A stretch of DNA of 24,741 nucleotides from a virus. The translations under genes were made by a program, and so were the position numbers. The notes under the pieces are model-generated. The model saw nothing but the letters and a program-made list of their open reading frames with translations, made no database searches and was not told the origin of the DNA. Of the stretch, positions 5,849 through 16,979 are shown piece by piece. Where the stretch lies: positions 1 through 24,741 of the IMG/VR virus record IMGVR_UViG_3300009433_000050. One strand, given 5' to 3'. Position 1 is the stretch's first letter; each line of letters opens with the position of its first letter.

Positions 5849-5883
5849 ATGGGTTGTGTATATTAAAAACATACATAACCCAT
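5849..5883 (+). terminator. Intergenic hairpin after the first fibre gene
   Basis: A 13-bp stem forms between ATGGGTTGTGTAT (5849-5861) and ATACATAACCCAT (5871-5883), with one G-U pair and a 9-nt loop. No T-run follows, so it is not a classical intrinsic terminator. It could be an mRNA-stabilising stem, an attenuating pause site or a processing site that separates expression of the first fibre gene from the six genes downstream. Confidence 0.4.
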
Positions 5884-14890: not shown

Positions 14891-14946
14891 TTGACGTTTA
14901 ACAGTGGTAGGTTTATCGTTGTATCACAAATGTAGCACAGTATAAC
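14891..14946. promoter_or_regulatory. Divergent promoter/operator region between the recombination operon and the Cro-like gene
   Basis: The 101-bp gap separates two oppositely directed early operons. Rightward elements: TTGACG (14891-14896) with TATCGT 17 bp downstream, and TTGTAT (14919-14924) with TATAAC (14941-14946) at 16 bp. Two direct repeats TGTATCACA (14920-14928) and TGTAGCACA (14931-14939), 11 bp apart, lie among these elements and are plausible sites for the adjacent Cro-like repressor. The inverted pair TTGTAT...ATACAA (14919 and about 14957) adds symmetry. All assignments are by inspection. Confidence 0.5.
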
Positions 14947-14983: not shown

Positions 14984-15244
14984 ATGCAGTTGAGAGATTG
15001 GATGAAAGCTAACAGATGGACAATGAATGCGATGTGCAAAGAAACTGGGATCGCTAGGCAGACAATTAAAACCGCCATGGATAAATCAAGTGACATTTTG
15101 CTAAAAACAGCGATGGGAATTTATGAGTTTACAAAAGGGGAAGTAACTTATTCTGAAATGTTAAGAGAGAACTACGAACAAAAGAAGCGCTACGACGAGA
15201 GGAAGAAAAATAAGCACCCACTCCCAACGGACAGTGCTATCTAA
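14984..15244 (+). CDS. Cro/CI-type helix-turn-helix repressor (86 aa)
   Basis: A small DNA-binding regulator of the lambda-repressor-like type. The segment WTMNAMCKETGIARQTIKTA (about residues 12-31) has the helix-turn-helix pattern, followed by EFTKGEVTYSEML (48-60), typical of short XRE/Cro-like proteins. The tail is charged and probably disordered. It lacks a LexA/CI-type protease domain. CGGAG precedes the ATG by 8 nt. It sits directly downstream of the divergent operator region and upstream of the replication genes, so it probably autoregulates and represses the leftward recombination operon (inference). Confidence 0.8.
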   Translation: MQLRDWMKANRWTMNAMCKETGIARQTIKTAMDKSSDILLKTAMGIYEFTKGEVTYSEMLRENYEQKKRYDERKKNKHPLPTDSAI

Positions 15245-15306
15245 AACACACTCTAACACAGTGATAAATATTTCTTTCATACTCTCTGTATAACAACAAG
15301 GAAACA

Positions 15307-15339
15307 ATGCGTAAAGATAAAAAATCTGCTATTCGATAA
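15307..15339 (+). CDS. Possible 10-residue leader peptide
   Basis: ATG with AAGGA 5 nt upstream opens a 10-residue frame (MRKDKKSAIR) ending in TAA. It lies in the leader between the Cro-like gene and the initiator gene, just before a series of RNA hairpins. Its brevity makes chance likely, but the SD and position would fit a leader peptide influencing the downstream structures. Confidence 0.25.
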   Translation: MRKDKKSAIR

Positions 15340-15370
15340 GAAGTGAAAAATATATAGTGGATAAAAAAAT

Positions 15371-15452
15371 GACCTGCATAAGTATCTAGCTTACACAGGT
15401 CGGAAGGAAAGTTCGTGGCGAACTTAATTTCAGCATAAAGAGACTGAAATTA
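15371..15452 (+). other. Structured RNA leader: three consecutive hairpins
   Basis: Three consecutive stems are visible. The first pairs GACCTGCATAAG (15371-15382) with CTTACACAGGTC (15390-15401), ten of twelve pairs, loop 7 nt. The second pairs AAGTTCG with CGAACTT (15409-15425), perfect, 3-nt loop. The third pairs TAATTTCAG with CTGAAATTA (15425-15452), perfect 9 bp, 10-nt loop. No T-run follows. Together with the next hairpin they fill most of the gap before the initiator gene, so the gap is probably a regulatory 5' UTR, a small RNA or an origin-linked structure. Confidence 0.55.
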
Positions 15453-15467
15453 TCAATCAATACGGAA

Positions 15468-15501
15468 TTTTCTTCAATTACCAATCTTTAATTGAGGAGA
15501 A
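15468..15501 (+). promoter_or_regulatory. Hairpin sequestering the ribosome binding site of the initiator gene
   Basis: Bases 15468-15480 pair continuously with 15489-15501: 13 pairs with two G-U, loop of 8 nt. The right arm contains the SD GAGGAG (15494-15499), so the whole SD is base-paired when the stem forms. The ATG at 15508 lies 6 nt beyond it. This would limit translation until opened by a ribosome, protein, temperature or competing RNA. The pairing is seen directly; the regulation is inferred. Confidence 0.6.
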
Positions 15502-15507
15502 ATTTCA

Positions 15508-16464
15508 ATGTCAGACGATCAAGAAATCCACGTAGAAGATCTTACAACAGTCAGCAAGTTTTTTAGTCAGATACCAAGCGTCATTCATCATATGGGATTA
15601 GGATGCTATATTGTAGCTTACTATTGTTTATTAAAAGCGGTAGCAGAAGAAAAGAAAACCTGCTTTATGAGTCAAAGCACCATATCTTCACTTTTAGGAT
15701 GCTCCATTAAACAGATCCAGTTAATGACAAACTTTATGGAAAAGCCATTTGCTGCATTGGGCGGAAAATCTTTAATAAAAGTAACTCGCCGAAAAAATGA
15801 GAAGAAAGAAAAAGAAACCAATGTCATTCAAATTGTTGATATTTGGGTTGAAAATATTACGGCTATGAAGGACAGAAAATCTATTCCGAAAACCCCAATG
15901 AAAGAGAAGAAAATTAAAGATAAAGAAAAGTTTAGTACGGAACCAGGTTCGCTACCTACGGAACCAGGTTCGCTAGGTACGGTACCAGGTACCGATAAAG
16001 AAGAACCCTTTAAGAAGAACCCTTCTAAGAATATACCTATATCATCATCATCGGAAGAAAAGCAGGTTGCACCTGCTGATGATGCCGGCGGCGCTGATGA
16101 TGATCCGGATAAAAATATAGGGGAAAACATTTGGTTTAGAAAAACAAACGGGCAAATGAAGAAGATCACTCTTTCGGAAATTTATCTGCGCTTCATCAAG
16201 CTACCCTTTTCAACCGAAACCGTTACCGAAGCCATCTCCCGATTTAAAATCCTCACTAGCCCCATAAATAACGCGCTCAAATACCTTGAATCAATTTGCG
16301 TGACAATAGACAAGGAAAAAGAAAATAAGCCCTTTAAAGCCAAGGAAACAGCCGTTAAAGACCAACCTCAAGAATCAATAAAAACTTCAGAACCAACCAT
16401 GACAGTAGGAGAATATTTAAAATGTCGGAACAAAAAACACCCTTCCCCTTCGGGAAAAGCCTAG
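15508..16464 (+). CDS. Putative replication initiator / replisome organiser (318 aa)
   Basis: The N-terminal region (about residues 20-120) looks like a winged-helix DNA-binding domain: CFMSQSTISSLLGCSIKQIQ (52-71) and KSLIKVTRRKNEKKEKE. A basic linker leads to the repeat TEPGSLPTEPGSLGTVPGT (144-162), then an acidic low-complexity part (about 178-205). The C-terminal domain (about 205-290) is helical and may bind the helicase loader. Architecture, the immediately following DnaC-like gene and iterons inside the gene match the lambda O or DnaD-like initiator arrangement (established for those phages, inferred here). GAGGAG 9 nt before the ATG is occluded by a hairpin. The 3' end overlaps the helicase-loader gene by 43 bp. 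Confidence 0.65.
   Translation: MSDDQEIHVEDLTTVSKFFSQIPSVIHHMGLGCYIVAYYCLLKAVAEEKKTCFMSQSTISSLLGCSIKQIQLMTNFMEKPFAALGGKSLIKVTRRKNEKKEKETNVIQIVDIWVENITAMKDRKSIPKTPMKEKKIKDKEKFSTEPGSLPTEPGSLGTVPGTDKEEPFKKNPSKNIPISSSSEEKQVAPADDAGGADDDPDKNIGENIWFRKTNGQMKKITLSEIYLRFIKLPFSTETVTEAISRFKILTSPINNALKYLESICVTIDKEKENKPFKAKETAVKDQPQESIKTSEPTMTVGEYLKCRNKKHPSPSGKA
15936..15997. repeat. Three iterons inside the initiator gene, candidate replication origin
   Basis: Copies start at 15936, 15957 and 15978, an exact 21-bp period (two helical turns). Copies 1 and 2 share the identical TACGGAACCAGGTTCGCTA; copy 3 is the variant TACGGTACCAGGTACCGATA. Each centres on an interrupted palindrome, GAACC-A-GGTTC or GGTACC-A-GGTACC. 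Directly downstream, AAGAACCCTT occurs twice at a 14-bp spacing (16001 and 16015), followed by an AT-richer stretch. The resemblance to lambda ori within gene O is strong in layout. Confidence 0.65.
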
Positions 16465-16979
16465 AAAATGCTCATGTTGCTCAAATTGATCAATCAAAAG
16501 AGGACATAGAAAAAATCCTGAACTGGATTGATGGAAAGAAAAATATCCTTTATTTCTGCGGAAATGTGGGTACTGGAAAGACATTTCTTTGCGCTGCTTT
16601 TTACAACTTTGTTAAAGAAAAAAATAAGCATATTAGGGCTTTTACAGAATACAAATTATTTGGATTGCTTCGGGCAGAGATTCAAAAAAACTTTGACCCT
16701 TTGATGAAAATTGAGCAAATATGCGAATCGCCTTATGTTATTCTTGACGACATGGGAAGCTCCTCAATGACAGAGTGGCAAAAAGAAATGCTTTTTGAGT
16801 TTGTGAACATAAGAGTTGAAAGCGGACTACCTACTTTAATAACTTCTAACATGAAAAAAAACGATCTTCTTAAAACTTTTCATGAGAGATTCAGCTCCCG
16901 AATTTATGCAGCGAAAAACACAATCATAGAGCTAAACGGTGAAGATCGCCGTCAATGGAAGGAAAAAGATGGTCAGTGA
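16422..16979 (+). CDS. DnaC-like helicase loader, AAA+ ATPase (185 aa)
   Basis: An AAA+ protein of the DnaC/IstB group. Walker A GNVGTGKT is at residues 47-54, Walker B VILDDMG at 106-112, the sensor-1-like TSN at 141-143, and HERFSSRIY at 154-162 carries the conserved arginines. At 185 residues it is shorter than DnaC (245) and lacks most of an N-terminal helicase-binding region. It would deliver host DnaB helicase to the origin, since no phage helicase gene is visible in the window. AGGAG lies 9 nt before the ATG. It overlaps the initiator upstream and the next gene downstream, forming a replication operon. Confidence 0.9.
   Translation: MSEQKTPFPFGKSLENAHVAQIDQSKEDIEKILNWIDGKKNILYFCGNVGTGKTFLCAAFYNFVKEKNKHIRAFTEYKLFGLLRAEIQKNFDPLMKIEQICESPYVILDDMGSSSMTEWQKEMLFEFVNIRVESGLPTLITSNMKKNDLLKTFHERFSSRIYAAKNTIIELNGEDRRQWKEKDGQ

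Follow-up and report, generated by a model that had tools for sequence, protein, structure and literature searches.

Genomic setting of the initiator leader

The stretch of DNA analysed here in its entirety (24,741 nt, hereafter the window) comes from an IMG/VR virus record of 24.7 kb. YqaJ exonuclease and RecT genes run leftward, and the rightward genes are, in order, a cro-like gene, a replication initiator gene and a gene for a DnaC/IstB-like ATPase (Table 1). The assignment of the initiator gene (15508-16464) is supported by a sub-cut-off HTH_36 match of its product (E 3e-4), the adjoining ATPase gene, homology, via relatives, to annotated DnaD-like phage initiators and the iteron-like repeats inside the gene. 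These repeats are a possible lambda-type origin; the lambda O gene likewise carries iteron-type repeats internally. Tandem repeats of 15-23 bp were also observed in the initiator genes of L017, L020, L030, L109, L123 and L096, and the presence of repeats inside initiator genes suggests that lambda-type intragenic origins may occur across the phage family.

The nearest relative with a matching early region, L002, has a terminase 96% identical to that of the window. The two share their DNA up to 15281 and again from ~16040. In between, with sharp boundaries, a single unit made up of the leader and the initiator's N-terminal half has been swapped (15284-16040 in the window, 4110-4990 in L002). 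The left edge of the exchanged leader is marked by a 31-nt block directly following the cro-like gene, which, judged by eye only, resembles a boxA/nut-like antitermination site.

Table 1 Features of the initiator leader and its surroundings in the window; ON and OFF refer to the predicted alternative leader structures
Feature	Position	Strand	Remarks
Candidate early rightward promoter, TTGACG-17-TATCGT	14891-14919	+	conserved in L002
Gene for cro-like small DNA-binding protein	14984-15244	+	start of early operon; homologous gene in L002; family position
31-nt block CTCTAACACAGTGATAAAYATTTCTTTCATA	15251-15281	+	identical in L002 except for one T/C
Short ORF MRKDKKSAIR	15307-15339		in the leader; good SD
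Predicted antisense RNA, ~83 nt	15362-15444	-	extent inferred from promoter and terminator
Predicted intrinsic terminator of antisense RNA	15371-15401	-	12 pairs, then ATTTTTTT
Pre-emptor: SD-like GAAGGAAA (15403-15410) and TTCGTG (15412-15417)	15403-15417	+	pairs with 15461-15475 in ON
Perfect inverted repeat AAGTTCG-TGG-CGAACTT	15409-15425	+	upstream stem-loop of antisense RNA; in the mRNA, open when ON is formed
Short ORF MANLISA	15415-15438		GTG start; good SD, which is the pre-emptor segment; wholly inside the antisense-covered stretch
Leader hairpin TTAATTTCAG/CTGAAATTA	15424-15452	+	enclosed by ON helix
Predicted antisense promoter, TTGAAG-17-GATAAT	15449-15477	-	PWM score 9.8, shuffle P 0.04; sigma70-like model
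ON partner of pre-emptor	15461-15475	+	15468-15475 is part of the anti-SD arm
OFF hairpin	15468-15501	+	anti-SD arm 15468-15480, loop 15481-15488, SD arm 15489-15501
Initiator SD, GAGGAG	15494-15499	+	within OFF stem; paired probability 0.96; opening energy 8.7 kcal/mol
Replication initiator gene, 318 aa	15508-16464	+	HTH_36-like; DnaD-like relatives
Three 21-bp near-palindromic iteron-like repeats	15936-15998	+	inside initiator gene; third copy by eye
Gene for DnaC/IstB-like helicase-loader ATPase	16422-16979	+

A hairpin sequesters the initiator Shine-Dalgarno sequence

The stem consists of 13 uninterrupted pairs, two of them G-U, closing an 8-nt loop. The right arm contains the entire Shine-Dalgarno sequence (SD), which is separated by 8 nt from the ATG at 15508. 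The earlier note on this DNA had described precisely this pairing; its description is exact, and the structure is far beyond chance. The bare hairpin has a folding energy of -10.9 kcal/mol, and the segment 15461-15510 folds at -13.8 kcal/mol (z -4.4 relative to shuffles, 0 of 200 being as stable). Hairpins with at least 13 contiguous pairs and no more than two G-U pairs occur twice in the whole window, compared with 0.07 times in shuffled sequences; the sole other example, at 5849-5883, lies between two rightward genes and has no clear T-run. The paired probability of the initiator SD is the highest among 37 window genes examined, and its opening energy has a shuffle P of 0.01. The statement that most genes of this phage have exposed SDs is broadly correct, with the qualification that weaker local structure leaves a number of further SDs 0.7-0.9 paired.

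The AU-rich stem with its two G-U pairs bears a superficial likeness to an RNA thermometer, and temperature was among the triggers considered in the earlier note. However, the lock probability computed in silico stays at 0.95-0.99 across 15-60 °C, and this reading is extremely improbable.

An Rfam search gave no match at the gathering score. An exact search of viral contigs for the hairpin returned three matches; the one examined, in L010, falls within coding sequence and proved to be unrelated and due to chance. No close homologue sharing the window leader was found in the viral contigs, phages, plasmids or genomes searched, and recurrence of the structure was consequently tested in non-homologous leaders. 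The proposal in the earlier note that its reading would be refuted by homologous phages lacking the pairing could not be applied literally: L002 carries another module, with a weak lock (SD opening energy 3.6 kcal/mol), and the wider family shows locks built from unrelated sequences.

A competing pairing and a predicted antisense unit

A competing fold is predicted for the leader. In this ON fold, 15403-15410 pairs with 15468-15475 and 15412-15417 with 15461-15466, giving 14 canonical pairs. Since the ON partner includes part of the anti-SD arm (15468-15475), the ON and OFF structures are mutually exclusive. Transcripts ending before the SD arm are predicted to adopt ON (block probability 0.85) whatever their 5' end, and the nascent segment 15362-15486 folds at -35.3 kcal/mol as compared with -16.7 kcal/mol for its shuffles (z -6.3, no shuffle as good). 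Once the SD arm is present, OFF is the predicted preference in complete leaders, with a probability of 0.90-0.93. The complete leader has energies of -39.5 kcal/mol in ON and -41.7 kcal/mol in OFF, a gap of 2.2 kcal/mol, and its fold has a z of -4.3 with no shuffle equally good. OFF thus being the more stable form in the window, ON could arise there only kinetically. The P value of the window's own pre-emptor is modest (0.035-0.10).

On the opposite strand, the leader contains a promoter-like sequence and a terminator-like hairpin, which together would delimit a short antisense RNA; its start site is uncertain, and the promoter score presupposes a sigma70-like host. The predicted RNA (-23.4 kcal/mol, z -5.0) begins with an unstructured 5' tail and ends with the terminator stem-loop; between them are a first stem-loop and then a U/C-rich spacer, which is weakly paired and forms the complement of the pre-emptor. 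L002 has a like arrangement of different sequence, in which the promoter-like sequence is TTGAAT-17-AATAAT and T7 comes after the hairpin.

The -35 box of the predicted antisense promoter sits in the anti-SD arm. The inverted repeat that forms the OFF hairpin could be read as a DNA element, an operator or origin site for a protein, that overlaps this box and hides the SD only incidentally. Its centre precedes the predicted antisense start by about 41 bp, a usual position for a regulator, and the finding that leader and initiator N-terminus were exchanged together, as seen on comparison with L002, is in line with such a site. Across the family, however, the repeats are unrelated in sequence and yet place the SD in one arm far above expectation, which a DNA site does not need. 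This reading is very improbable.

Recurrence of the lock across the phage family

The family was defined by the terminase: 221 viral loci matched, of which 80 related loci were taken, and a second terminase yielded 38. Early regions were found via gene order and fetched where needed, and the identity and start codons of the initiators were likewise assigned from gene order. For 30 initiators the median SD opening energy was 6.1 kcal/mol, whereas 711 non-initiator genes from these loci had a median of 2.2 kcal/mol (P 1.3e-9; several initiators are homologous and the members therefore not fully independent, so that P values, calculated as if they were, are optimistic). Values above 5 kcal/mol were found for 73% of the initiators versus 12% of the other genes, and the difference in opening energy holds when the initiators are compared with genes having leaders of at least 80 nt (P 2.3e-8). 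The locking hairpins of family members are unrelated in sequence. For example, L091 and L135 have initiators 51% identical and SDs that are both locked, with different arms.

In the smaller follow-up set from the second terminase, each genome contributed a single start, which for L161 was that of the first replication-type gene beyond the cro-like gene. Here 4 of 5 initiators with a lead SD had opening energies of at least 7.8 kcal/mol, although one of these, L126, was no better than its shuffles. Roughly a quarter of the scored initiators, about 8 of 35, are without a strong lock. In addition to L002, weak locking was found in L112, L116, L122, L123, L037 and L140, all with lower values, and L108 was borderline in one test. 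Among the best matches from isolated phages, no terminase exceeded about 36% identity. The DnaD-like initiator genes of eight isolated phages belong to tightly packed operons, where leaders are short or absent, and consequently provide no test of the switch. Related terminases were also present in the MAG contigs L094, L095 and L096, binned as Nitrospiraceae, Bacteroidetes and Simkania (Chlamydiae); the binning may be wrong.

An antisense-strand intrinsic terminator was found in 23 of 33 leaders, against 1.8 expected; some leaders have no detectable one, in part because an overlapping gene call shortened the scan region. Promoter-like sequences are enriched upstream of these terminators (Fisher 2.5e-5; sense-strand control 0.45). 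Two sense-strand devices were considered and rejected. For an attenuation terminator, sense-strand terminators were present in 3 of the 33 leaders only, and the OFF hairpin of the window is not followed by a T-run; a sense promoter inside the leader, which would give an unlocked mRNA, showed no enrichment. In L122 (G029), an antisense terminator at 2482-2504, in coordinates on the reverse complement of the stored locus, lies directly 5' of the initiator SD, and the antisense RNA would therefore cover the SD and start codon rather than the leader.

Pre-emption of the anti-SD also recurs. In 27 locked initiator leaders its probability averaged 0.69, compared with 0.51 when the upstream sequence was shuffled (Fisher 2.7e-4), whereas 57 other locked genes of the same phages gave 0.50 with either sequence (Fisher 0.64). 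The direct comparison of initiators with these control genes gave P 2e-4, and a separate duplex-energy test at the initiators gave a Fisher value of 1.4e-4. In the 18 leaders with a predicted antisense RNA, the anti-SD pairs within the antisense-covered stretch with a value of 0.48 versus 0.15 expected (P 5e-4). The clearest cases are L020, L042, L059, L105, L114 and L115. For L042, L114 and L115 the complete free leader is predicted to be ON at rest, though the local -70 region is locked.

A proposed two-state leader controlled by an antisense RNA

The reading favoured here on computational evidence, with a probability of about 0.6, is that the hairpin represents the OFF state of a two-state leader that would limit initiator synthesis under the control of a short antisense RNA from the opposite strand of the leader. 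On the emerging early transcript, the anti-SD segment 15468-15475 would first pair with the pre-emptor at 15403-15410, the helix being extended to 15417; the SD would then be free, and the initiator translatable, provided that the ON state lasts long enough. Binding of the antisense RNA, predicted to run on the minus strand from about 15444 to 15362, would make the pre-emptor unavailable and let the anti-SD close on the SD. Because more phage genomes would make more antisense RNA, initiator synthesis should drop as copies accumulate. The suggestion in the earlier note that translation of the initiator is switchable is upheld as to the lock and the idea of a switch, but not as to a thermosensor or a shared control by leader peptides. 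A small RNA is the best-supported of the controllers it listed, in the form of an antisense RNA predicted from the leader sequence itself.

Alternatively, the hairpin could be a static brake that merely lowers initiator translation, possibly only on nascent or freshly opened mRNA, with the antisense unit acting otherwise, as in lambda pO/OOP, e.g. by interfering with rightward transcription. At equilibrium the window leader is OFF, and in silico it remains so when the antisense-covered part is blocked; moreover, the lock and the antisense unit can each be explained separately, and in lambda convergent pO transcription reduces pR transcription and affects replication (PMC3985674). However, a brake of this kind predicts neither the enrichment of pre-emptors at initiators nor their place inside the antisense-covered stretch, and it is considered unlikely.

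Relation to known systems

In copy control of the pSK41/pSA564 type, the antisense RNA measures ~83 nt and contains two stem-loops along with a short spacer and a 5' tail; it is the complement of a part of the rep leader that precedes the start by about 100 nt. The leader adopts exclusive ON and OFF structures: in ON its central segment finds a partner upstream, whereas in OFF this segment pairs with the ribosome binding site and thereby hides it (PMC5703833, PMC8129170). The window matches these RepA_N plasmids (pSK41, pSK1, pSA564) in size, layout and logic, the phage parts being predicted from sequence. The setting differs, consisting here of tailed phages with a DnaD/HTH_36-like initiator and a lambda-like early operon. 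The window initiator is not RepA_N, and the plasmid search gave no match. Furthermore, the OFF hairpin of pSA564 has been proposed to be a transcription terminator, whereas that of the window is not one, as no U-run follows it. On this comparison the window system would work like pSK41/pSA564 copy control and yet not be a member of that family, given its non-RepA_N initiator, the absence of a terminator after the OFF hairpin and the lack of any sequence relation found.

The three parts predicted here, an SD lock, a competing upstream segment and an antisense RNA over this segment, are those of pSK41/pSA564 and also of pT181. In pT181 the 87-nt antisense RNAI binds the rep leader, and the ribosome binding site lies in a stem-loop whose 5' arm is contested by a "pre-emptor" (PMC5703833). 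ON is a kinetic state in pT181, as it would have to be in the window. However, pT181 acts mainly via transcription termination at this stem-loop, and the phage hairpin has no T-run.

The predicted antisense unit also resembles lambda OOP/pO in specifying a short antisense RNA that has a promoter and a terminator to itself and is encoded between the cro-like/cII region and the initiator, immediately before the latter and on the strand opposite to the rightward early transcript. The activity of pO affects lambda replication (PMC3985674). OOP is antisense to cII, whereas the predicted window RNA falls wholly within the initiator leader, over the pre-emptor. No complementarity to the 3' end of a cII-type gene was found in the window, the antisense RNA ending near 15362 and the cro-like gene at 15244. 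The SD of lambda O is not strongly locked (3.4 kcal/mol).

Antisense RNA control of an initiator is a textbook mechanism of plasmid copy control. The literature covered, which was partial, yielded no account of a phage initiator controlled in this way. It is tentatively proposed, at somewhat less than even odds, that a large tailed-phage lineage represented by over 200 uncultured contigs controls its initiator as plasmids do, through an antisense RNA together with an ON/OFF leader that hides the SD, with the leader and DNA-binding domain exchanged as a unit. Given such joint exchange, phages that co-infect a cell or reside in it could fall into replication-incompatibility groups set by their antisense/leader pairs. 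If so, phage genome amplification would be tied to copy number, replication exclusion between related phages would be possible, and a reason would be supplied for OOP-like antisense units beside phage initiators. As one structure recurs with unrelated sequences, the proposal can be tested by simple reporters.

Short open reading frames in the leaders

The initiator SD of R1/IncFII plasmids (CopA-tap-repA) is also held in a hairpin, with an antisense RNA directed against the leader, and opening of that hairpin requires translation of a leader peptide. The first two elements are alike in the phage leaders, whereas leader-peptide opening is not a feature they share. Coupling of the IncFII type, in which the lock is opened by a ribosome translating a short upstream ORF that the antisense RNA can block, would be compatible with the two short ORFs of the window and their good SDs, and with the location of MANLISA inside the antisense-covered stretch; in L020 and L042, moreover, ORFs cross the anti-SD. 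However, neither window ORF extends to the anti-SD at 15468, and an ORF over the anti-SD arm was found in only 4 of 20 leaders (L020, L042, L119 and L121). Coupling to a leader peptide is accordingly very improbable, and ribosome passage over such a peptide, as suggested in the earlier note, finds no covering ORF in the window.

The ORF of L020 has 60 codons and runs across the lock. That of L042 (4813-4851; MSMPITIDIFLI) has 12 codons and a stop codon just past the anti-SD, so that a terminating ribosome could keep the anti-SD open.
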